From a virus, in IMG/VR virus record IMGVR_UViG_3300030382_002302, positions 1 to 20,303 of that record: a stretch of DNA of 20,303 nucleotides, one strand, 5' to 3'. Below are positions 1,478-13,800 of the stretch, piece after piece (the stretch's first letter is position 1; each line of letters opens with the position of its first letter). The position numbers and the translations under genes were made by a program. The notes under the pieces were generated by a model that was given only the letters and a program-made list of their open reading frames with translations, had not been told where the DNA came from and did not search any database.

Positions 1478-4062
1478 CGGAATGGACCTCCATGAGAGAC
1501 AAAATTGGTTGGACGTAAGGCATCAATATACTGTTGTTGATCAACACCTTTGCTCCAGTTCTCAACCATCTGGGTATATCCAGGTTGCAGTGTTTCCATT
1601 ACCTGATAGTGGACCAAGTAATTGTATGCTAATTCAGTATAGAACAGGTTCATGAACGGAGTCCGTTCCCTTATCATGTTCCATGCATCAGCAGCACCGT
1701 CCTGCCCAGTCGCCAGTCCCTTACCTAGCGATGCAACGTCCTTAAAGAATTCGTAATGTGGACCAAGTAGAGTTTCATCAAAGGATGAATGATGTCTACC
1801 AACCTCTTCAAGTAAAAAGTCACCAATACCTGCACCAAACCCACTTTGTACTATCGACTGTAATACTGTTTCAAGGTCATCTGGTCTTCTAGGTTCCTTT
1901 CCTTTAATCAAGTCTTTTACTGCAAGCGAAGCATATCCTACTCCAATCATTGGAGTGAGGTGTAGCAAGCTTGGAAGTCCCATTTCCCACATACGTGGCA
2001 GTACTTTCCGTCCCATTACTACTGGATGTGAACGAAATGTAAAGATCATTTGTGCAACTACTGCAGGTACAGTTCCTCTCTGAAAGGTTCTCATCATAAA
2101 TGCACGGTCTGTAGCATCAGGTGTTGGAACAGCCAATCGTGCTTCATTTTGATAGAACCTATCTAGCATGAACCCTAGACGTTCCCCCTTCTTCCCTGGA
2201 ATACGTTCCATAACCCAATCAGAGGTGATAAACCTTTCACTTCCTACATCAGCATTCTTATACTTAGGATCATTTTTAACTCTTTCTTTCAAAGAAAAGG
2301 AACCTGCAGATTGTAATTCAACCCAATCTCGTTCCTGGAATCTATGTTCCTTCAGTGTTTTCTTCAATAATGGATCAAGATCTGCCCACTTTGTATTCAT
2401 TTTATGAGCAAGATGCATTGACATAGACCTACCCCATACTTCCTTCCACATGTTAGTCCACCAATTCAGACCACTCAGATCAAACATCCTTTGTGCAGCA
2501 CGATTCCACCGTTCTCCTAATGCGAATCTACTATGTGTTGTATGAAGCAATCCTTCTAAAGCGACATTCATATGATTTAAGACATATTCTCTTTCTGCTT
2601 TAGTCTTAATTCCATCCAAACGACTACGTAGTCCGTCTATTATGTCTCCATAGGCTCCTAAGAACCCCCTGCCATGACTGTGAAGATTAACAGCAACTGA
2701 AGCAAAATCCCCAAATGATGAAACCATGGATTTACCCATCGTTGTTGTTATCAACCATGACTGCATCCCCCTCATGAATTTGGCTATTGAAGGCCGACCT
2801 ACCACATAGGACTCTCCTGATACCTGTTTCCACATAGAATTCAAATCATCACGTTGTTTCAGATTTAATTTCACAGGTTTTGCTTTTGCTGCATCAGCAT
2901 TTTCCACCATCTCATTCCATTTTGATTTGGCATATACTACCTTCAATTGTGCATCAGGCTCCAATGCTGCGACTTTTGCACTGTCTAAGCTGTCAGGGTG
3001 CTTATCATGCCCATATGCTCTCCATTGACCCTCTAGGTCCATTAAATCAGATTGTTTCCATTCACGTACAATCCCTGCCTTATCTATATAAACCTTCTCT
3101 CCTGACATTCTTCGTTTCAGATAATTGAAAGCTTCTTTGGGATTACTACCAAAAGCTTTCAGAAGAACAACTCTATCATCCATAACATCCATACCCGATA
3201 ACATAGCCTCAACAGGATTTTCATGTCCAAATCGTTTATTGTATGCAAGCCATGATGCTTTATCTTTTAATTGAAGATGTCTACTCAATTGGAGTCTTTT
3301 CCCAAGAGACTTATTCATTATATTCCCAGACCAATCAAATTCGTCAGCACTCTCAGTAAGTGCTTTATATACACCTCGTAAATATCTCTTCTGCCCATTC
3401 TCTGTTAAGGCAGACAATAGATTCCCACGTACATCAAATGATTTATCTAAATCTAAGTGTCCATGTATGAAATCAACCCAATCACCTTCCTTGATGGATT
3501 TAATCCGTATTGGATCATGCCACTGCTGTGTAAGATGATCATCCCTCCAGAGCATTGCTGCTCCATATTGGTTTGCTTCTCCTACTTGTGCCTTCTTTTC
3601 ATGGAAACTTTGTTCACTGAATGCAAAAGCTTCTGAATTATCACTCTTTTGTTTTCCTGTAAAAGGCAGCATTTCTTCTACAGTTGCCTCCTGGAATCCT
3701 TTGTCATTGATCTTCCTACTGAATAACTTCCTTTCAAATGGAAGGTGGTTCATGATTCTTCCTACACGGTTTGACTTACGGGTGTCCTGATCCTTTGCAA
3801 CATTCACTAAGAAATTGTAAATCTTGTCATAGACTTCATTTCCTGACCCAGACATAAGATTCTTAAAGAATGGTATTCTGGATGTTAAATAATTCCTGGC
3901 TACTTGTGTTGAATGAAGACGGAAGGCTTGTCGTTTTGCAGCTTCAGGACCAAGTGCAGTGAGTTTATCTAGACTAACATCTTTTATAGCATCTAAAACA
4001 TCTGCAGCTTCATCAAAACTGATCTTAAACTTCTTTGCTAGATTGCTTGCACAAATACTCAT
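1474..4062 (-). CDS. Large internal virion (ejection) protein, gp16-like C-terminal part, 862 aa
   Basis: Probable core protein that leaves the capsid with the DNA and helps it cross the cell envelope. The clearest signature is near residues 662-680 (RGTVPAVVAQ, then MIFTFRSHPVVM). This resembles the RGT-P...FKSFP stretch in the C-terminal part of gp16-type internal proteins of podoviruses. A hydrophobic, Gly-rich stretch follows (about 698-722, LLHLTPMIGVGYASLAV); the rest looks mainly helical. I chose ATG 4062 over the in-frame TTG at 4080 because it makes an ATGA overlap with the 361-aa gene and has GGAG 9 nt upstream; the TTG start would add six residues. T7 gp16 has about 1318 residues and an N-terminal lytic transglycosylase domain, and neither that domain nor an N-terminal membrane-active region is visible here. 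The preceding 361-aa protein may supply the missing middle part. The gene ends at ATGA with the fiber gene. Confidence 0.7.
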   Translation of the reverse strand: MSICASNLAKKFKISFDEAADVLDAIKDVSLDKLTALGPEAAKRQAFRLHSTQVARNYLTSRIPFFKNLMSGSGNEVYDKIYNFLVNVAKDQDTRKSNRVGRIMNHLPFERKLFSRKINDKGFQEATVEEMLPFTGKQKSDNSEAFAFSEQSFHEKKAQVGEANQYGAAMLWRDDHLTQQWHDPIRIKSIKEGDWVDFIHGHLDLDKSFDVRGNLLSALTENGQKRYLRGVYKALTESADEFDWSGNIMNKSLGKRLQLSRHLQLKDKASWLAYNKRFGHENPVEAMLSGMDVMDDRVVLLKAFGSNPKEAFNYLKRRMSGEKVYIDKAGIVREWKQSDLMDLEGQWRAYGHDKHPDSLDSAKVAALEPDAQLKVVYAKSKWNEMVENADAAKAKPVKLNLKQRDDLNSMWKQVSGESYVVGRPSIAKFMRGMQSWLITTTMGKSMVSSFGDFASVAVNLHSHGRGFLGAYGDIIDGLRSRLDGIKTKAEREYVLNHMNVALEGLLHTTHSRFALGERWNRAAQRMFDLSGLNWWTNMWKEVWGRSMSMHLAHKMNTKWADLDPLLKKTLKEHRFQERDWVELQSAGSFSLKERVKNDPKYKNADVGSERFITSDWVMERIPGKKGERLGFMLDRFYQNEARLAVPTPDATDRAFMMRTFQRGTVPAVVAQMIFTFRSHPVVMGRKVLPRMWEMGLPSLLHLTPMIGVGYASLAVKDLIKGKEPRRPDDLETVLQSIVQSGFGAGIGDFLLEEVGRHHSSFDETLLGPHYEFFKDVASLGKGLATGQDGAADAWNMIRERTPFMNLFYTELAYNYLVHYQVMETLQPGYTQMVENWSKGVDQQQYIDALRPTNFVSHGGPFR
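1487..1491 (-). promoter_or_regulatory. Ribosome binding site of the tail fiber gene
   Basis: GGAGG on the minus strand, 9 nt before the ATG at 1477 and inside the end of the 862-aa gene. It fixes the fiber start at the ATGA overlap. Confidence 0.7.
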
Positions 4063-5144
4063 TGTCCTTTTCTCCAACAACTTGCTGCATAATTAACAAT
4101 CTTTTCAAACTCATCTGCTGTTCTATTGACTACTGATCCTGTGAAATTGACTAATTTGCTTTGAAATTCTGGAGTAACCACACTGTCTATTGCAGTTCCC
4201 AATCCTTCTTCAAAAAGTTCAACAGTTTCATTAGCACGAGCAGCATCTCCTTCCCTTTTAGCCCATGATAATCTCCTATTAGCATCTTCTGATGCTTGTC
4301 TTGCTATACTGGAAGGTTCAATACCATGTTCAGGATACCGTGGTCCTGCTGGTTGGAATGGATTATTAGGATCTCTAGGATTATAGTCATTAGGCATAAC
4401 CGATCCTAGTTCGCCATCGCCAATGTCTTTGGATACCTTTGTTAATGCTCCTGCTCTCCATTTAAACGGAGCCTTTACCACTACTGGTGCAATTTTGGCA
4501 AATGCAGCTAATGATGAACCAGCAGCTATAGAAAACCCAACATCTGCCAGAACCTCTGTAACACCCCATGGTTGTTGCATAATTCGTTTTTTAGGCCAAA
4601 TAATGCTTTCTGCTAGTACTGCATACATCCCTGCTTCAGCACCTACAGAAGCCACATCTCCAATTGGCTTAAACATTTTACTAGCAAAATTTGTATGGAC
4701 TCCTGCATTTACTGCTTTTGCTGTTGCCCCCATACGAGCTACCATTCCTCCAAAAGGGATAGCAACTAATGGATCTAAGACCCCAGACCCTACAAATCCA
4801 CCTATTCTTGATGGTTCCCATGGTCCCACATTTCTTGTAAACCAACTATATGCTCTGTCTCGTTCATGTGTTTTTTTTAAGAGATCTAATTGACCTATTG
4901 TCATCCCTTCTTCATATTGGATATTTAAACCTTCAGTAGCAGATTCAAACTGGTCTTGTCTAATAGGTTCAGATAAATATTTTTGGAGCATATATTCTAC
5001 TAACTCAATACCCTGATACATTGGACTTTCAACAAGTCCCATTTTGGCAGACTCAAAAAAGACTCCATAAGGACTTGGAGTAAATCGATTCAGTCCTTTT
5101 GTGAAGATATCTGGTCTAGCATATCTATGTCTTTGTCTTATCAT
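4059..5144 (-). CDS. Internal virion protein with hydrophobic segments, possible gp16-like middle part, 361 aa
   Basis: No catalytic motif is visible. Three small-residue-rich hydrophobic stretches occur at about residues 114-139 (GFVGSGVLDPLVAIPFGGMV), 162-182 (VASVGAEAGMYAVLAESII) and 196-223 (VLADVGFSIAAGSSLAAFA). The pattern GG-x-GS-LDP followed by Ala/Gly-rich membrane-like helices fits the central membrane-active part of large podovirus ejection proteins. The C-terminal third is charged and helical after a Pro/Asn-rich linker (about 250-275). The gene overlaps its neighbours by ATGA on both sides (5141-5144 and 4059-4062). Inference: with the 862-aa product it makes a two-chain equivalent of gp16 (about 1223 residues in all, near T7 gp16 without its transglycosylase). 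It could instead be an independent core protein. Virion membership is likely from position; the precise role is uncertain. Confidence 0.6.
   Translation of the reverse strand: MIRQRHRYARPDIFTKGLNRFTPSPYGVFFESAKMGLVESPMYQGIELVEYMLQKYLSEPIRQDQFESATEGLNIQYEEGMTIGQLDLLKKTHERDRAYSWFTRNVGPWEPSRIGGFVGSGVLDPLVAIPFGGMVARMGATAKAVNAGVHTNFASKMFKPIGDVASVGAEAGMYAVLAESIIWPKKRIMQQPWGVTEVLADVGFSIAAGSSLAAFAKIAPVVVKAPFKWRAGALTKVSKDIGDGELGSVMPNDYNPRDPNNPFQPAGPRYPEHGIEPSSIARQASEDANRRLSWAKREGDAARANETVELFEEGLGTAIDSVVTPEFQSKLVNFTGSVVNRTADEFEKIVNYAASCWRKGQ
4072..4075 (-). promoter_or_regulatory. Ribosome binding site deciding the start of the 862-aa gene
   Basis: GGAG on the minus strand, 9 nt before ATG 4062 and within the last codons of the 361-aa gene. 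It favours restart at the ATGA overlap rather than the TTG at 4080 or a ribosomal frameshift. No canonical slippery heptamer is in phase here. Confidence 0.55.
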
Positions 5145-6673
5145 GAATCGGGTCTTATGTTCCTGAATTCATTCCACCATTGAACAGGATCAGATTCATA
5201 AAATCCTTCAGGTAAATCAGGTAAATCAGTATGATCTATTTTTAATTTCCTATCTTCTATTTCCTGATCTGTCAAGAAACCAAAACTCCAATCCTTTTTC
5301 AAATATTGACGTAATTGAGTAAACATTCCTCCATGCTTTGCCAATTCATCGCCAAAATACTCTTGAAGTTCTTCATTACTGGGTCTGATACCCATTTGAT
5401 TAGCGAAATGTTCTATTAAAGGCTTTAAAACATAATCTACTTGAGCATGACTAAATTCTTCCATATCAACCAATGGGGACCACCATGCATTGGATTGTTG
5501 TGGGTCTGTATCCATTTTAGAAGGATTATTGTATTCCTTATACCATTCCAACATTTGGTCCCATCCAGTATCCCAAGTTCCTGTTGAAGATGTTTTTGTT
5601 GCAAAATTACTAGCTGCTTTTCGCATTTGGTAAATACCGCTAACGATTTCATCTGTTAAAGCCATCTTTATCCCTTCCTCATGGGATGTAGTTAGCTTGT
5701 TCCCATCTGGTCCTCGTACATATCCTTTGATTTTATTCGGATACCATTCTGTTGGCAAGAACCACCATCTCTGATCTTGAGGTTCAGGTGTATATTGGAT
5801 AATAGCTATTTCCCAATTTTCTGTATCAGCAGAATTAGTAGTAACACAACGATATGAACCACCTCCTCGGAAACATTCTCTCAGGAATATCTCTTCGCTA
5901 TATCCTTGTTTGGATAAATATGCTGGAATTTCGTTACTTCCAGGTTCGTAATGCAGAGTTAATCCTTTATATCCATGTTTTTCAAACTTCTCAATTGTGT
6001 TACGTTGCCCACCAAAAACCACTTGATCCCCGTCTACACCATATTTTGATGTTAAATGGTTTCTAGGTATTCCTAAATACTCCCCAGTATTGGAATCATA
6101 CCCGACTAAATCTTTCCCATAAAATCTAGATATTGTTTCGTCTATAGCTAAATCAGCATTCCTAGTTGCCAAAGGGCTTGTAGATGCGACCGACTGTACC
6201 AGATCCCGTTGCTTTTGCCGATCTCCTCTTTCTCTAAGAAGATGATAACTGGTTGGTCTTCTATTAATCCTGTCCAGAACTCGTTCTTCATTTAACGTAT
6301 CTGATTTAATCGTATCAGTTGATCGAGACTCTAAAATCATTAACTTTGTTTCAGGATCGATTTGATGCCAAATCTGAGCAGTTGCATACACTGACGGATG
6401 TGTTTCACGTAAATTGTTCTCCAATTGCTCCATAAATATATCTGCGACATCTGTTCCTTGTTTACCAAATGTATGTTCTACAGGGTTTAACACATAATCA
6501 TAATTATCTTTTGTAGTTCCTTTTGCAGTCAGTTCTTGTATTGCAGAATCCCAGAACCCTTTATGAAGAAAAGTCCCATCTTGTTTGTAGACATTTCGTA
6601 ATATATCCAACGAACGTGGATCTTCGTTGATTATTGTTGCAAGATTCCTAATTGTTAGATCATCTGGACTCAT
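5141..6673 (-). CDS. Hypothetical protein in the internal-virion-protein block, 510 aa
   Basis: I do not recognise this protein. It is soluble-looking and charged, without a signal peptide or clear membrane helix. The N-terminal half is helical (about 1-180, with Arg/Asp/Glu-rich stretches such as RERGDRQKQRD). A more beta-like, aromatic middle follows (about 210-330, including RECFRGGGSYRCV and QRWWFLPTEWYPNKIKGYV). The C-terminal part is acidic, with Trp-rich spots (SNAWWSPL, PVQWWNEFR). I found no lytic transglycosylase, peptidase, nuclease or zinc-binding motif. ATG 6673 has GAGGG 3 nt upstream and overlaps the end of the 1210-aa gene by 14 nt; the stop makes ATGA with the 361-aa gene. 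Position between the gp15-like and gp16-like genes suggests a virion core component, but this is inference from context only. Confidence 0.55.
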   Translation of the reverse strand: MSPDDLTIRNLATIINEDPRSLDILRNVYKQDGTFLHKGFWDSAIQELTAKGTTKDNYDYVLNPVEHTFGKQGTDVADIFMEQLENNLRETHPSVYATAQIWHQIDPETKLMILESRSTDTIKSDTLNEERVLDRINRRPTSYHLLRERGDRQKQRDLVQSVASTSPLATRNADLAIDETISRFYGKDLVGYDSNTGEYLGIPRNHLTSKYGVDGDQVVFGGQRNTIEKFEKHGYKGLTLHYEPGSNEIPAYLSKQGYSEEIFLRECFRGGGSYRCVTTNSADTENWEIAIIQYTPEPQDQRWWFLPTEWYPNKIKGYVRGPDGNKLTTSHEEGIKMALTDEIVSGIYQMRKAASNFATKTSSTGTWDTGWDQMLEWYKEYNNPSKMDTDPQQSNAWWSPLVDMEEFSHAQVDYVLKPLIEHFANQMGIRPSNEELQEYFGDELAKHGGMFTQLRQYLKKDWSFGFLTDQEIEDRKLKIDHTDLPDLPEGFYESDPVQWWNEFRNIRPDS

Positions 6674-7004
6674 TTGCCCTCATTATTGTATCGAATGTTC
6701 CAACTCCGTTAAAGTCTATGATTGGTGAGAAATTTCTATCTACCATGACTGCATTTAATAACTGATTTTCATTAGTCCATATCCATCCTACATCTCTACC
6801 ATAATGTCCTTTAGGAGCCTTTATAATACGTACTTGAAATCCTGGTTTTTTGAAATAATCTGCTAAAGCTTGTTTCGCTGCTAAACCTGGACCAGAGGTA
6901 GGAGTAACCATTTCTTTTGTGTTAATCCCTCCAAAACGAACACTCCTATAAACACCATCCTCACCTAAAACTTCTATAGTATCCCCATCAATCACTCTTA
7001 TTTT
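6660..7004 (-). other. SNase-like (thermonuclease) domain at the C-terminus of the 1210-aa protein
   Basis: Covers residues about 1097-1210. The order of motifs is DGDT, VRFGGINTKE, GLAAKQAL, HYGRDVGWIW and LLNAVMV, the same order as in the SNase family. The usual R35/E43/R87 catalytic triad is kept; the metal-ligand position Asp40 is Asn. The domain is in frame with, and has no separate start from, the rest of the protein. Confidence 0.85.
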
Positions 7005-10000
7005 CTGAGCTGGTATCCATCTTTTAGAACCTATATTTGTAATATTCGGATCTTCAGGATTTGCTTCTCCGTGGTTTTGATTTTCTATATAAGCATCTAT
7101 GAAAAGTGTCGCTCCACGATTATCAGGCGACAAACTTGCTATTCTATCTTCTGCAAGATCTTTCCACATATTGAGAATAAGCATTTTATGTCGATTCCCT
7201 TTTGCAACTTGATCTAGATCATTCATTTGGCTTCTGATTAAAGAAGGATCTGTCAGCCTTATCGTTTTAAGTGCTTGAAGTTGGATTATATTAGAAAATA
7301 TATCTAAATCCTTAAACTGCTGAATATTTACACCTAAACGTGTTTCTAATGTATGTTTTTCATGATCCTCCATTTGTAAAGGATCTCGTATTGTATTCTT
7401 TGTGAAAAAGGTCTCATTGATGAGATAACGAGCATATTTATTTAATTCAGCGTCCACATTTTCTACAGGATCAGGTGTAAATCTATCAACAGTATCATGA
7501 GCACCTTTCTGGATTTTCAACCAATTTATAGGTGCAATATGCTTATATATGCCTGTTGAGCCTAAAATGCTCTCACCCTTTTGAAGTAATTCTTGAGCAC
7601 CCTCTAATGTATTTAATCTACGTGTCAGTTTTGACCAATCTTCCTGATTGAACCAATGATCCCTAGCTTGTAATGCTGATGTTTTTAATCTCGATAGCCA
7701 TGGTTTGTATTTACTGCCAGCATCCTTTTTGGCTTTGGTATAAGTATCAATCTCTTTTATAGCATCTGACATTTCTTTACTAGATTTACCTGTCTTAATA
7801 ATTCGGTCTATTCTGTCAAAAAATTGTTGTTCCTCAAGATTTTGCGGATCTGGTTTACTTGCATTAGTCTCTAGTTCTAAAGCTTTCAATCTTGCTTGAG
7901 TATTCAAAAGCTCTTTACCCATCTTGCTAAGACCTCCTGGTTGATTATCTTCCCTGATGGATAGATCAACCGATTCTTCTGTTCCTAGATCTGCATAACC
8001 AATCTTTACTGCATCACCTACCTCTAACATTTGCAGAAGCTGTATAATCTTATTCGGATCATCTTGCAACTTAATAAAACTACTAATCTTTTCTGCATTC
8101 AGAGCTTTTTGATTCCTATTCTCTTTCTCACGTTCTGCTTCATAATGTGAAGAATGAACTGTTCTTGCGTCAGTTAGTATTCTTGTTAAATCATCTTTTT
8201 CATGTTGTTCAAGATTAAGAGATTGTATATCAGCAATTATATTGCTGTATAACTCTGCATGTTCTTCTGGTCTTATTCGTGCTGCTTTTAACAGGAATTT
8301 TGATATTAACCCTTTCGTCCGTTCATCATTATCAGAAAGAGTGATTGCTTTTTCAGCAAGCAATCTATTCGTTTTAATAAATGTTTTAGATAATGTAGAA
8401 AGAGCCGTATCTGCATCTATTTCTTCATCAGTAGGCAACTGATCCAAATTCTCTGCTGTTTGAATCTGTCCAGATATTTCTGCTTTCCTCTGAGAATCCT
8501 TTTTAGCTATAGATCTTTCTGTATCTGCTGCTTCTTTTTCTATGTATACTCTTTCCAAATTGCCAAGCTGAGTATCTAAAGCAGTTTTATCATTTTTTGA
8601 TAGATACTTATGGGATTTTAAAGCTACTCTAAGTTTTTTCACTTCATTAGAGGTTCTTACATCAGCAGCTAGATTATTGACTTCTCCAATGTGTCCTGTC
8701 CTCACTATTTCATTCACTTCTCCTGTTGCTTTTTGAAGCAGCCGTGCTGCAGATGCATCCGACATAGATACAATATTTTGTTCCAACGGAGTCATATCAT
8801 CTGTAATCTTTGTTTCAGGATCTTTCAATTTCCCTGATGTATCACGATACTTTTCATACGATTTTAAAAATTCATCCTGTTTATTAGGTGTACTTAGAAA
8901 ATATTCTGCAGATCGTGCAGCAGAATTCTCATTTTCCGAATTACGTGTTTCTTCAATCAAGTAATTCAGATTCAGTCGATCTTGTGGATGAAGATTTTCT
9001 GCTTCTATTTGTTGTTTTGCTTTCTCATACGTTAATCTCCCTAACTTGAAATTGCTTTCTATTCTACTAGCATTTAATAAACGGGTTTCCTGTTCTGAAT
9101 TTTTCTTTTCCTGAATAGCATTTTCTACAATAGATCTAACTTTTGAAACATCAGAAGGGAAATCTTGCTTAAGCTTTATTTGGTTAGGGATGACTTTACC
9201 ATCAACAACCTTAATATATTTTTTATACATACTTTCTTTGGTTGCCATATCATCTTTTAATGTACCTAATGCCAAAGTACTATTATAATTTCTAACTGCA
9301 GCTTTAATCCTTTGATCCACAAGTATTTTGGATTCACTATCTAACACGTTATACCATTGATAGAAATCCCCTGTTTTGTCCTGGATTCTTTGTTTTAATA
9401 AGTATGGTTCTGTTGTCTTGATAACAGTATCAACAATAGTAGATGCTGTATTTTTAGATACTTCTTGTTCTCTTGACCATATTTGTACTAATTTGTCAGC
9501 AAGTGCATTTCCTTTTATATCTTGTTTATCATATGAATATTTTTTCAACACTTGTTCAAGAGTCAGTGCACTAAATGCTTTTGGGTTTTTGTTATAATCC
9601 ATTTCTGCTTGTCCCAAAGCCATAGAATTAACAAGTCCCTTTGCATAATTTTTAATAAGATCTTTCTCAATTAAATTCTGATTAACAAAAGGAGTAAATC
9701 TTTCCGAATAACGAGCAAGTTCATTCTCTGCGACCTTTTGCCAAGGTATTTCTCCTTTTAAGGAATGAATAAGAAACTCAGACAATGCATCTGCACGACC
9801 TATTTCCAATTCTTGTTCAAGACGGAATTTTCTTTCAACATTAATATCTGATAAAGCAGATCCTATAATTCCTTGTCTTTTAAGTTTTAACCGTGTATTT
9901 GCAGATTTATTAATATCTTTATTTTTAGAATATTCGATTGGCTTATCAAACTGATGTGTATTTTTTAAATAGTCAGTCAAACCCTTAGTATTCAGATCTT

Positions 10001-10292
10001 CAGTTTTCCAGTTAGGAATTTGATTATATCGTAGTTCATCTGCTAGTTTTGCAGCATCTATATCCTGCTGACGTTCTATTTCTTTTGTTTTTAATGCTTG
10101 ATTAGATTTCTCAGCCTTTGCAGCAACCCCTCCAAGCTTTGCAAAGAGTCCTTCCATGCTTTCAAAGAGAGACTCTTCTGCTTTTGCACGGCCTGTATCT
10201 GCAGTTCCTCTTTGAGGAGCCTGAGTCATAGGAGCCTGTTGCATCTGTGCTTGAGGAGTCTGCTGATTAAAATACTGTCTTGGAATAATCAT
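6660..10292 (-). CDS. Large gp15-position internal virion protein with C-terminal SNase-like nuclease domain, 1210 aa
   Basis: The N-terminus is Gln/Pro-rich (QQTPQAQMQQAPMTQAPQ), followed by roughly 1000 residues of mostly charged, helix-forming sequence, as in long podovirus core proteins such as T7 gp15 (747 aa). Residues 1098-1190 match the staphylococcal nuclease fold: VIDGDTIEV (1100-1108), VRFGGINTKE (1118-1127), a GLAAKQAL helix and HYGRDVGWIW (1163-1172), then LLNAVMVDRN. By alignment to staphylococcal nuclease, Arg35, Glu43 and Arg87 correspond to R1119, E1127 and R1166, and Asp21 to D1104. Asp40 is replaced by N1124. This fits a metal-dependent phosphodiesterase acting on DNA or RNA. 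ATG 10292 overlaps the previous stop as TAATG and has AGGAG 4 nt upstream. Role in the ejected core is inferred from position; the nuclease domain is well supported, its activity untested. Confidence 0.8.
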   Translation of the reverse strand: MIIPRQYFNQQTPQAQMQQAPMTQAPQRGTADTGRAKAEESLFESMEGLFAKLGGVAAKAEKSNQALKTKEIERQQDIDAAKLADELRYNQIPNWKTEDLNTKGLTDYLKNTHQFDKPIEYSKNKDINKSANTRLKLKRQGIIGSALSDINVERKFRLEQELEIGRADALSEFLIHSLKGEIPWQKVAENELARYSERFTPFVNQNLIEKDLIKNYAKGLVNSMALGQAEMDYNKNPKAFSALTLEQVLKKYSYDKQDIKGNALADKLVQIWSREQEVSKNTASTIVDTVIKTTEPYLLKQRIQDKTGDFYQWYNVLDSESKILVDQRIKAAVRNYNSTLALGTLKDDMATKESMYKKYIKVVDGKVIPNQIKLKQDFPSDVSKVRSIVENAIQEKKNSEQETRLLNASRIESNFKLGRLTYEKAKQQIEAENLHPQDRLNLNYLIEETRNSENENSAARSAEYFLSTPNKQDEFLKSYEKYRDTSGKLKDPETKITDDMTPLEQNIVSMSDASAARLLQKATGEVNEIVRTGHIGEVNNLAADVRTSNEVKKLRVALKSHKYLSKNDKTALDTQLGNLERVYIEKEAADTERSIAKKDSQRKAEISGQIQTAENLDQLPTDEEIDADTALSTLSKTFIKTNRLLAEKAITLSDNDERTKGLISKFLLKAARIRPEEHAELYSNIIADIQSLNLEQHEKDDLTRILTDARTVHSSHYEAEREKENRNQKALNAEKISSFIKLQDDPNKIIQLLQMLEVGDAVKIGYADLGTEESVDLSIREDNQPGGLSKMGKELLNTQARLKALELETNASKPDPQNLEEQQFFDRIDRIIKTGKSSKEMSDAIKEIDTYTKAKKDAGSKYKPWLSRLKTSALQARDHWFNQEDWSKLTRRLNTLEGAQELLQKGESILGSTGIYKHIAPINWLKIQKGAHDTVDRFTPDPVENVDAELNKYARYLINETFFTKNTIRDPLQMEDHEKHTLETRLGVNIQQFKDLDIFSNIIQLQALKTIRLTDPSLIRSQMNDLDQVAKGNRHKMLILNMWKDLAEDRIASLSPDNRGATLFIDAYIENQNHGEANPEDPNITNIGSKRWIPAQKIRVIDGDTIEVLGEDGVYRSVRFGGINTKEMVTPTSGPGLAAKQALADYFKKPGFQVRIIKAPKGHYGRDVGWIWTNENQLLNAVMVDRNFSPIIDFNGVGTFDTIMRANESR

Positions 10293-10855
10293 TATGCTCC
10301 TGCTGCGTAGGTTCCACCTGCACCAGCTAATGATGAGAATATATTAGCACCCCACATATCGTCAGCACCTGATCGTTTGGCTTTAGCCGATGCATAAAGG
10401 TTATTATAGGACATCATGGTTTGTTCATAGTCTGCTTCCATCCATTGGTTGTAACCTCTAGTTGCAGATTCAACATCTGTTTGAGTAGACATAGCAACCT
10501 GTTGTTGGTTATACCATGCATCAAAGGCTTGTTCGACCTGCACATCCTGGGTAGTACCCATCTCAGAGATAGCTCCCGAAGATGTTGTTGCAGTTCTGAC
10601 TTTACCAACTGCCTGATCACCTGCTCTAGCAGCCAACGCCAACTGTTGACCACCCTGATCCATTCTTTTTGTAGTAAAGTCGTAAAGATTATCACGTTGT
10701 CTTTGGACATTACTGAAGTGGTTTCTAAGGATTGCATCAGCATATGCTTCATCGGCATCTGCTTCTGCATAAGAACTTCTTTTAATAGCATTAGCTTTGC
10801 CTACTCCTGAAGCAAATTGAGCAAAAGCTGCTGCACCTAACCACCAAGCTGCCAT
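10292..10855 (-). CDS. gp14-like internal virion protein, 187 aa
   Basis: Likely a core protein analogous to T7 gp14 (196 aa), thought to form a pore in the outer membrane after ejection. Evidence is size, position directly after tail tube B and before the long core proteins, and layout. An N-terminal small-residue hydrophobic stretch (WWLGAAAFAQFASGVG, residues 4-19) is followed by a long Ala/Gln-rich helical middle with many charged residues. The C-terminal tail is Gly/Ala-rich (about 171-187, SSLAGAGGTYAAGA), as at the end of gp14 proteins. ATG 10855 is separated from the tail tube B stop by one base; no strong ribosome site is seen, so coupling to the upstream gene is likely. The stop overlaps the next start as TAATG. 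Sequence identity to T7 gp14 looks low, so the assignment rests mainly on architecture and order. Confidence 0.6.
   Translation of the reverse strand: MAAWWLGAAAFAQFASGVGKANAIKRSSYAEADADEAYADAILRNHFSNVQRQRDNLYDFTTKRMDQGGQQLALAARAGDQAVGKVRTATTSSGAISEMGTTQDVQVEQAFDAWYNQQQVAMSTQTDVESATRGYNQWMEADYEQTMMSYNNLYASAKAKRSGADDMWGANIFSSLAGAGGTYAAGA
10297..10301 (-). promoter_or_regulatory. Ribosome binding site of the 1210-aa gene
   Basis: AGGAG on the minus strand, 4 nt before ATG 10292 and just ahead of the TAATG overlap with the gp14-like gene. Confidence 0.65.
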
Positions 10856-10856
10856 A

Positions 10857-13800
10857 TCAGACGTTCATTTCATGTTCAGAAACAAGAGCAACCAGCGTCA
10901 TTGGAAAAGGCTGATCGCATAGAATCTTGATTTGTTCCTCATCCAAGGATCTGCTCAAGATATTTGCTGTTTTATTACCTGTAAATAAAGGAACCATCGT
11001 ATTCAGATCATCCTGTGTTAAGCGGAAAATGAATTCTTCCAGGTCATCATCATCTTGACCGAATAGTCCTATTTTAACGCCTAGAGTATCGTGTAAGAGA
11101 AGATGAGCCTTTACCACCCTATCCCTACCAACTACAAATAAACTTCCGTCTACAGCCTGTTTAGGAGTCAGACAGGTCAATTCTGAGTTATAAGGTAGTC
11201 CTGCAACCAGTTTTGTAACTGCTGTATTTATTGTAAGAACTCCTGATGAAGAATTAACTGTTGCATTAGGTTGTACTGCTCCATCTCCAAGGATTCTTAG
11301 TTCTTCAGCTTTCAGATGCAGGTAGTTTGCAGTAGTGAATTCTGAAGAATCAGTCTTATAAAGCCCACAATCTACAAAATGTGCAAGATCCTGTGTTGTT
11401 TCAGTAGGTTCATAGAACTTTTCAAGGAATTCGACATATCTGACAGTGGAACCATTTATATCTCTTTTTACTATCATCCATAATTGATCCCGTCCTCCTG
11501 CAGGAATGACTGCCATTGATTCCACAGAACCATAAGCTTTTGAACCATCTTCACCTGCTATTTCATGTTGACCCCATCCTACTACTTCTAATGTGTCCTC
11601 AAAAGACATGGATGCAAGAGTACCATCTTTCATACGGCACCATGTCAAAGAATGAGGTTGTTTCTGATAGACAATCTCTTTTATTTCTTTACCTACCAGT
11701 TCATCTGCCTGATATGAGATCTCTCTGGACTCATATTGGACATCTTCCCCACTGAATGTAAGCAGACGGAGTTTCCGTTTGTTAAACTGTACATAGATCA
11801 TGGCATTACCAATCCTTACAGGCTTAACATCTGCTGCTTCCCAGGATGTATCACGTATGATAGAGAAGTTGGTAGGAGTAATAGTGTAGTTATTCTCTGA
11901 ACCATAGAGATTGAAGACACCTCCAGAAGTACCTAGTGAGAGTTTCTTTCCTTCAGCAATCCAATAGATTTCATCTACAGTATCCGAATCAATGGTTAGA
12001 CTGATGGCATTACTATCTAGAATCTGCTCTCCCATGATCGTTTGACCAATGGAATCAGATGCACCTGTAGAGATACCAATCTTGCTATCAGGTGCAAAAC
12101 TATGGAAATCCCCTGCTTCTGATAACCAAACTGTAGTGGGATATTGGGTCGAAGAACCTACTACAAGACGTTGTTGATGGATTTGGATACAACTAGGCCA
12201 TTCGTAATCTCCTCCCAGAATACCCATCCTCCATTCACGGGTATTGACATCAACAATACCTACCTCACCTTGAGAAGTTGCAGTAATTGATCCGAGTCCT
12301 ACTGCTACTGTTTTTATTTTAAACCATGTCCAGCGTATACCCTTGGTTTTTTCTGCTTCTGACCCTGCAAATACATTGACTCTGATAAGACGTTCAGTAT
12401 CTTCAGCATCAAAAGAGTGTCCATCCGCTGTAATAGTACAGACCTTATCTTTTGCAATGACTTTCTTTTCAAGATCCAACTTACCTGTCCATTCAACGAC
12501 TGATGCATCTCCTATAACGGGCGTTAACTTCGCACCTGTTCCTGATGCATCTACAATGTCAATAGTTGCATTTCCATAATTTCGCCCATTGTTACTAATA
12601 TTAATTGTCCCATCAATTTTACCAGAGGAATTTGTTTCAAAAGTCGCAGCAAACCCAGAGCCTCCAGTAGTGCTAGTAGCAGTTAATTTATTTCCAGTAG
12701 AATCTCCGTGAGCTACATCAGCACCGTATCCTGTTCCTCCTTCTGTGATAGTAACCGAGTCAATCCTAAGATTATTCAGCTTGGAAAGTTTAAACTCTAT
12801 TGGAGATCCACCTGCTTCTATAGCAATCTGGAAAGAAGATGATTGTGCATTTACAACAAAATATTCTGTACCATCAAGTGTTGTAGGATCAGCATCATCA
12901 CTACATGAAGGGAAAGGAGTTTCATCAGATGACGACGAATCTGCAGTAACAAGATTACCTGCAGTCAATCCAGTTCCTGATGGGAACTTAATCTTCATCC
13001 CATTCATAAGACCATGACCAAAAAGAGTAAATCGGTTCTGGGTTGTATCAACACCAACTCCGTCTACTGCTGCCCAAGCATAATCACTTCCTGTTACTGC
13101 TGTAACCTTGACTAATTTGGCATTATCCGTATTGACTTCATCCCATGGACCATCTTCAAAATCAACATCACTTAGGGTCCATACTGTATCATCTGCTGCT
13201 CTCGTTGACTCTGTTGCATCAATGGTTCTAGCTAGTTTTTTAGGTTGGAAATCAGGATGAACAATATAGATTACATCTGCAGATTGTGTGAAATCAAAGG
13301 TCTTGGTCTGTGCTTCTGAAATAGTCGTTGTTTGTTCATAGGGATCATCATTGTCACTACCTAAAGTAGGAGTTAAAGTTGCTCCTGACCCTGAAGAACT
13401 TATTACTATCGTAGGAGCAGAAGTAAAACCTTCCCCAGGATTTGTTATAGTTACAGCATCGATTACTCCTCCAGAAACAGTATAAGTTCCTGCGAATTCG
13501 TTGGAACCGTCAACTCCACCTCCTCCTGTTGCAGTTAGAGTCCCTGCTGTATATGTAGCAAGAGTTGCAACATCACAAGTCGCATTTACAGCACCTCCAA
13601 TGGTATCTTTTGAGATCGTTAAAGTGTCATCAACCGCATAGCTGGTTCCTGCAGTTGTGATCGTCACGGATGCAACTTGATTTGAAGCATTAACAACAAC
13701 CGTTGCAATTGCTCCAGATCCTGTTCCACCAGTTAAGGAAACCTCAGTGTAGGTTGCTTCTGTATGATCACTATTATGGACAATCGTATCGACAGTTGCG

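Follow-up and report, generated by a model that had tools for sequence, protein, structure and literature searches.

The 1210-aa protein encoded in the gp15 position of a short-tailed phage contig ends in a divergent SNase-like domain (residues ~1091-1210), which we call on the basis of fold and residues. Our tentative reading, to which we give a probability of about 45%, is that this domain is enzymatic cargo on a DNA-ejection protein and cuts nucleic acid in the envelope zone of the infected cell, with the periplasm as the preferred site.

The window analysed here is the whole IMG/VR contig IMGVR_UViG_3300030382_002302 (20,303 bases), whose minus strand carries structural genes of a short-tailed phage. 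The portal gene matches PF12236 (E = 4e-122), tail tubes A and B were recognized by family match, and the scaffold and capsid genes were placed by their order in annotated relatives only. The closest isolates by portal are HTVC010P-type pelagiphages (~34% identity). The genes are arranged in the order portal, tail-tube families, gp14-position gene, 1210-aa protein, 510-aa protein, 361-aa protein, 868-aa gp16-type protein and fibre family. T7 gp15 and gp16 are large internal virion proteins encoded after gp14, and the 1210-aa gene lies, as a T7-type gp15 does, between the gp14-position and gp16-type internal virion genes; its placement among internal virion (ejection) protein genes, as originally proposed, is supported by this gene order. 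The features are listed below, together with their relation to two other contigs, L002 (3300030329_004293) and L016 (3300008050_000105).

6660..10292, minus strand: 1210-aa gp15-position (internal virion/ejection) protein, an ORF without internal stop, between the gp14-position and gp16-type genes
10101..10292, minus strand: N-terminal 64 codons of gp15, 97% aa identity to L016 over residues 1-60
7023..10100, minus strand: gp15 body, residues 65-1090, exchanged in L016
6660..7022, minus strand: SNase-like domain, residues ~1091-1210 plus stop, from phrog_452, NF047694, Foldseek and VIA
4929..10100, minus strand: recombining cassette (gp15 body, SNase, 510-aa gene and start of the 361-aa gene), from blastn against L016
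5141..6673, minus strand: 510-aa protein without assigned function, 14-bp overlap with the gp15 frame
4059..5144, minus strand: 361-aa gp16-N-position protein, with a homologue upstream of the 868-aa homologue in L002 and L016-L021
1474..4080, minus strand: 868-aa gp16-type internal virion protein, matching phrog_684 (virion structural protein, E = 5.8e-83)
10292..10855, minus strand: 187-aa gp14-position protein, 98% identical to L016
10857-14144, minus strand: tail tube B gene, 1095 aa

The 868-aa protein also matched the 'internal virion protein' of pelagiphages by tblastn, and a scan from six short peptides, which reaches close relatives only, found no relatives of it in genome contigs. 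The tail tube B protein varies in length, with 1095 aa in the window, 1103 aa in L016 and 846 aa in L002. Within its gene, at window positions 13482-13795, two short segments match L016 in swapped order, and the alignment suggests a hypervariable repeat-like insertion.

The C-terminal domain matched phrog_452 ('endonuclease') over residues 1094-1185 (E = 2.3e-10) and the NCBIfam thermonuclease NucI (NF047694) over residues 1096-1187 (E = 3.6e-8), the latter far under the equivalog cut-off of the model. With Pfam PF00565 it scored 15.3 bits (E = 0.028), which is under the 21-bit cut-off, a threshold for naming rather than a biological trait. When PDB was searched by phmmer with residues 1090-1210, the top match was 2of1_A (E = 0.01); with the full 1210-aa protein as query, SNase was the sole match among PDB chains at E <= 1. 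An AlphaFold2 model covering residues 930-1210, built from a five-row alignment that included two stand-alone phage SNases, had a mean pLDDT of 70 and consisted of a helical stretch, a low-confidence linker (residues ~1077-1091) and a barrel domain; ten-residue blocks of the SNase part ranged from 30 to 83, and the last ~20 residues (pLDDT <50) are unreliable. The model matched the SNase crystal structure 1ihz in Foldseek (E = 2.5e-5, TM(target) 0.65) and 5kru in VIA-align (Z = 13.1, 2.5 Å over 116 residues), and the predicted domain has the SNase fold, an OB-type barrel with helices. The SNase-like C-terminal domain of the original prediction therefore holds, as the two families and the predicted fold agree, and the structural comparison with SNase that it had proposed gave a match. 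Its extent of 6660-7004 was nearly right: the domain is present there, but its start is nearer residue 1091, at window position 7022.

Alignments located the catalytic positions at 6795..6989 on the minus strand, counted from 10292, where the ORF begins:

6987-6989, minus strand: D1102, equivalent to D19
6981-6983, minus strand: D1104, equivalent to D21
6936-6938, minus strand: R1119, equivalent to R35
6921-6923, minus strand: N1124, at the D40 position
6912-6914, minus strand: E1127, equivalent to E43
6795-6797, minus strand: R1166, equivalent to R87

The catalytic residues of SNase are R35, E43 and R87. The assignment of R1119, E1127 and R1166 to this triad, made at first by inspection of the window, was confirmed by alignment, and the three residues are the same in L002 and L016. 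The equivalents of T22, T41 and Y85 are T1105, T1125 and Y1164, the Y85 position being occupied by W in L002 and F in L016. D21, D40 and T41 are the calcium ligands of SNase. The equivalents of D21, R35, E43 and R87 are common to the window, L002, L016 and the Aeromonas phage phiA008 described below, whereas at the D40 position the window and L002 have Asn, and L016 and phiA008 have Asp. Because D40 is replaced by Asn in the window, calcium binding and turnover may be altered and the activity may be low, as far as the alignment tells; Asn at this position can still supply a carbonyl oxygen.

An assembly or frame artefact was rejected, because the fused frame is present in other contigs, namely L003/L013 (residues 988-1210, 100% aa identity), L002 and L016. 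Over the whole 1210-aa protein, L002 is 71% identical to the window. Comparison of these two gave 78% aa identity and a dN of 0.157 for the domain versus 70% and 0.202 for the body, with dN as low as 0.135, below that of the SNase domain, in body residues 441-550; by this pairwise measure, the domain appears to be conserved at least as well as the body. We claim no dN/dS, since synonymous sites are near saturation between the window and L002 (dS 1.5-1.9).

The L016 DNA is ~94% identical to the window upstream, as far as gp15 codon ~64. Inside the ~5.2-kb cassette blastn gave no match to L016, and the alignment resumes at 82% identity within the 361-aa gene, with breakpoints at gp15 codon ~64 and codon ~72 of the 361-aa gene. 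Amino-acid identity between the two versions of the cassette is 22% for the gp15 body (residues 61-930), 26% for the aligned part of the 510-aa protein and 35% for the SNase domain, or 32% when counted across 95 aligned columns. Eight of the nine key SNase positions, which were picked and counted by eye, are identical between the window and L016, compared with 30 of the 95 aligned positions overall (hypergeometric P = 3.4e-4). The gp15 body, SNase and 510-aa gene travel together, since they have been swapped as one cassette, and both versions keep the nuclease domain.

Searched by hhalign with shallow profiles, the gp15 body gave no match to the gp15-position proteins of eight groups or to those of four phage records. 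The label gp15 is thus positional, because the body has no detected similarity to other gp15-position proteins. The 510-aa protein had no family match above noise, and its AlphaFold2 model is unreliable (pLDDT 41); it is possibly a partner of the gp15 body. No family match indicated a peptidoglycan-cutting domain in the window gp15, 510-aa or 361-aa proteins. The 510-aa protein is kept in the clade and was swapped together with gp15. In Greip and Ab31, gp15-position proteins bear the annotations 'pesticin domain' and 'endolysin', for which Pfam gave no support at E <= 0.1.

Of the 483 confirmed relatives from a scan with the gp16-type family, the 80 best loci were taken. PHROG 452 matched in 3 of these 80 related virus records (L002, L013 and L016, with L013 near-identical to the window); many of the records are fragments, that of L014 being without the gp15 region, and absence is not proof for any single phage. 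A profile of the SNase domain matched 3 of 30 records (L002, L016 and phiA008) and 0 of 33 further records; phiA008 lay outside the profile and served as the positive control (E = 3e-8). An alignment scan for more relatives found none. In L018 and L019, the nearest relatives in which the gene is complete and gives no SNase match, the gp15-position proteins are 989 and 985 aa long, and the 510-aa gene is absent. L020 and L021 encode an 881-aa gp15-position protein without SNase and a 520-aa gene replacing the 510-aa one, with no homology detected between the 520- and 510-aa proteins. The SNase domain looks like a clade-specific addition rather than a core part, and such phages can do without it, since only 3 of the 80 related records have it.

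Enzyme domains on ejected proteins are known from T7 gp16, T4 Alt and polyvalent proteins. We compared with Pfam a sample of 44 proteins (23 gp16-N-position and 21 gp15-position) from 23 of 72 loci, picked for diversity; the sample excluded two short ORFs that occupy the gp15 slot in L031 and L054. ADP-ribosyltransferase was found in eight of the 44 proteins and ddrB-ParB, Amidase_2, Hydrolase_2, NUDIX and HipA_2 in one each, the amidase and the cell-wall hydrolase being on a single protein, while SNase had no match in the 44 at E <= 0.001. PHROG 342, 'internal virion protein with endolysin domain', matched 17 of them. Seven of the eight ADP-ribosyltransferases were placed, each in the C-terminal half of a gp16-N-position protein (924-1408 aa). 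Alt-like ADPrib_exo_Tox domains were seen on the gp16-N-position proteins of L023, L026, L035, L039, L053, L054 and L055, and T4 Alt-like effectors may be widespread on podovirus ejection proteins. Beyond the 44, GH108, SLT, ART-PolyVal, RadC and ddrB-ParB occur on gp15-position or giant gp16-type proteins of L024, L049 and L076. The giant fused gp16-type proteins are L049:5975-11938 (1988 aa) with ART-PolyVal, L076:4882-11691 (2270 aa) with RadC-like JAB and L024:4664-11935 (2424 aa) with ddrB-ParB; they represent direct fusions of polyvalent-type proteins with the ejection protein.

The ejection proteins of this phage group thus carry varied enzyme domains, with SNase as the nuclease version. 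Like the window protein, the ADP-ribosyltransferase and polyvalent ejection proteins (ADPrib_exo_Tox, ART-PolyVal, ddrB-ParB) and T4 Alt have an effector on an ejection-cassette protein; unlike the SNase, the ADP-ribosyltransferases of the relatives have another chemistry and, in the cases that were placed, are located on gp16-N-position or fused gp16-type proteins. Delivery of the nuclease with the genome is made more plausible by the ADP-ribosyltransferases and cell-wall enzymes on the same protein set of the relatives.

A tblastn search with the L016 domain led to Aeromonas phage phiA008 (E = 7e-5). Its 2050-aa protein UIS74281.1 (L101:5956-12105), annotated as a hypothetical protein, has an SNase at the N-terminus that scores above the cut-off of PF00565 (29.9 bits, E = 8e-7) and keeps the key residues including D40. 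The gene comes after a 681-aa gene without family match, which we took for the gp15 position by order alone. The C-terminal part (residues 1666-2036) aligned with the window gp16-type family in a single hhalign comparison (probability 93%, E = 4e-7), and the C-terminus also aligned with 'virion structural protein' families (E = 1e-31) and with the 'structural protein' of Pseudomonas phage KPP25. phiA008 resembles the window in having an SNase with key residues on a large protein of this cassette, here a gp16-type protein after a putative gp15-position gene, but the SNase is N-terminal on the gp16-type protein instead of C-terminal on the gp15-position protein, the domain identity is 25%, the host is Aeromonas and the genome is 65 kb. 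In two distant phages, an SNase thus lies between the gp15-position and gp16-type bodies, at the tail of one and the head of the other. A six-short-peptide scan, which reaches close relatives only, found no relative of the first 1015 residues of the phiA008 protein in viral or genome contigs. A HELGH zinc-protease-like motif was noticed by eye in the middle of the protein, with no Pfam match; the protein may have two enzyme domains.

The original prediction knew SNases only as separate proteins. Short stand-alone phage SNases do exist, but the 2050-aa fusion of phiA008 is a counterexample. The stand-alone phage SNases of PHROG 452, such as the cyanophage 'endonuclease' and the 'nuclease-like protein' of Methylophilales phage Melnitz, the latter known as a search match only, belong to the same domain family as the window domain; unlike it, they are ~150-200 aa long in the five cases examined (L005-L007, L098 and L100). 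The window domain is 30-33% identical to L098, L100 and two cyanophage-type rows. Except for phiA008, all other phage SNases examined are short, or have 469 aa in the case of the AP45 thermonuclease. MT839905.1 was rejected as a possible fusion, its open frame being at most 192 residues.

A tree of 13 rows placed the window and L002 beside cyanophage-type SNases (95/99). When MT839905 was removed (12 rows), a branch separated the window, L002 and L016 from the other rows (94/94, not starred), and a constraint that kept phiA008 with these three was not rejected (p = 0.25). When phiA008 was removed as well (11 rows), the same three grouped again (87/96, not starred). The trees conflict; with ~100 positions and long branches, they are compatible with one or several acquisitions. 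Residues 1085-1191 of the L002 gp15 weakly matched (E = 1e-4) the middle of phrog_8809, a 2317-position family without assigned function. Since this family also matched 11 of the 14 control genomes, against 1 of the 14 records queried, we give the match no weight; the family may represent a further giant phage protein that contains an SNase-like segment.

As to how a virion-borne SNase might work, we infer its presence in the virion, ejection, activity, calcium control, periplasmic site and benefit. Judging from gene position, as for T7 gp15, the 1210-aa protein would be packed in the head, leave with the genome and help build a trans-envelope tunnel, and the tethered nuclease would cut nucleic acid in the envelope zone of the infected cell. 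SNases need millimolar calcium, and the cytoplasm is without it. The enzyme would be silent during assembly and active around entry, via calcium in the periplasm of cells in calcium-rich water. In T7, the periplasmic tunnel is formed by gp15, which is steadied at the N-terminal domain by gp14 and at the C-terminal domain by gp16-N (PMC8954989). By analogy, the C-terminal nuclease would be located in the periplasm, on the gp16 side. T7 also resembles the window in having an enzyme domain at the gp15/gp16-N junction, the start of T7 gp16 being a lytic transglycosylase, but the T7 domain cuts peptidoglycan whereas that of the window is an SNase. The periplasm is preferred because the gp15 C-terminal domain is held by gp16-N in T7 and because of the calcium requirement. 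The T7 geometry is an analogy, since the gp15 body matched none of the other gp15-position groups compared and no PDB chain except SNase.

The own DNA of the phage would be shielded inside the tunnel. The phage would gain by removing the DNA of rival phages, or other nucleic acid, outside the tunnel, and nucleotides would possibly be salvaged. Capsids let small ions through, and in calcium-rich water the enzyme might attack the packaged DNA; we found nothing that explains how packaged DNA is protected from the nuclease. In T7, the tunnel protects DNA against host nucleases in the periplasm (PMC11440229). A more specific version, which we regard as quite unlikely, is that a ring of calcium-gated nuclease heads on the periplasmic tunnel cuts later-arriving phage DNA before entry while the own DNA is shielded. 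If true, such a ring would amount to superinfection exclusion borne by the virion, effective from the first minute and ahead of any gene expression.

The main rival to periplasmic cutting is an ejected cytoplasmic effector that cuts host DNA or RNA or defence-related nucleic acid for early takeover or counter-defence, like T4 Alt; we consider it possible, though somewhat unlikely. The ADP-ribosyltransferase, HipA-like kinase and NUDIX domains on the same protein set of the relatives would have cytoplasmic targets, and the SNase of phiA008 is on a gp16-type protein, the C-terminal part of which is thought to reach the cytoplasm of T7-infected cells (PMC8954989). However, the window domain is on the gp15-position and not the gp16-type protein, and the own DNA of the phage would be exposed in the cytoplasm. 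The millimolar calcium that SNase needs is also absent there.

Degenerate SNase domains in Tudor-SN bind nucleic acid, and the window domain could likewise be a catalytically weak module whose SNase (OB) fold serves only to hold or guide DNA, either in the ejection tunnel or inside the head. This would remove the self-DNA problem and would fit the Asn at the D40 position of the window and L002. The retention of D21, R35, E43 and R87 in all four proteins is unexpected for binding alone, and L016 and phiA008 retain D40 as well, so we regard this explanation as unlikely. A role in assembly or on the own genome, such as end trimming, clearing DNA from the head or tail, or triggering release, is improbable: the gene is in a structural operon with portal and tail genes and internal proteins adjoin packaged DNA, but SNase was found in only 3 of the 80 related records, so it is dispensable for packaging and ejection in general, and the L002 record has a separate terminase-like ORF, as judged by eye. 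Slightly less probable still is a non-virion protein or a processing event that frees the SNase part as an enzyme. Cleavage in the low-confidence linker is conceivable, and the shortness of the other phage SNases would speak for this, but all three versions retain the fusion, and the body is swapped as one piece with the SNase and the 510-aa gene.

Enzyme domains on ejected proteins are thus already known, and what is apparently new is an SNase-type nuclease in that place. Among the matches listed in a literature search, which covered few subscription journals, no title or opening of an abstract described a nuclease domain carried by an ejection protein or by an internal virion protein. The word 'nuclease' occurs 0 times in PMC8954989, PMC10386132 and PMC13277306 and once in PMC11440229.

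Enzymes inside the phage head act before the expression of any phage gene, and a nuclease is the hard case, since it shares this space with the own DNA of the phage. If real and active, the window protein would provide a directly testable system to study how a virus protects its genome from a nuclease that it carries, and also to study early host attack or superinfection exclusion by the virion. The variety of enzymes on related proteins supports the view that, in short-tailed phages, the ejection cassette is a modular effector carrier.
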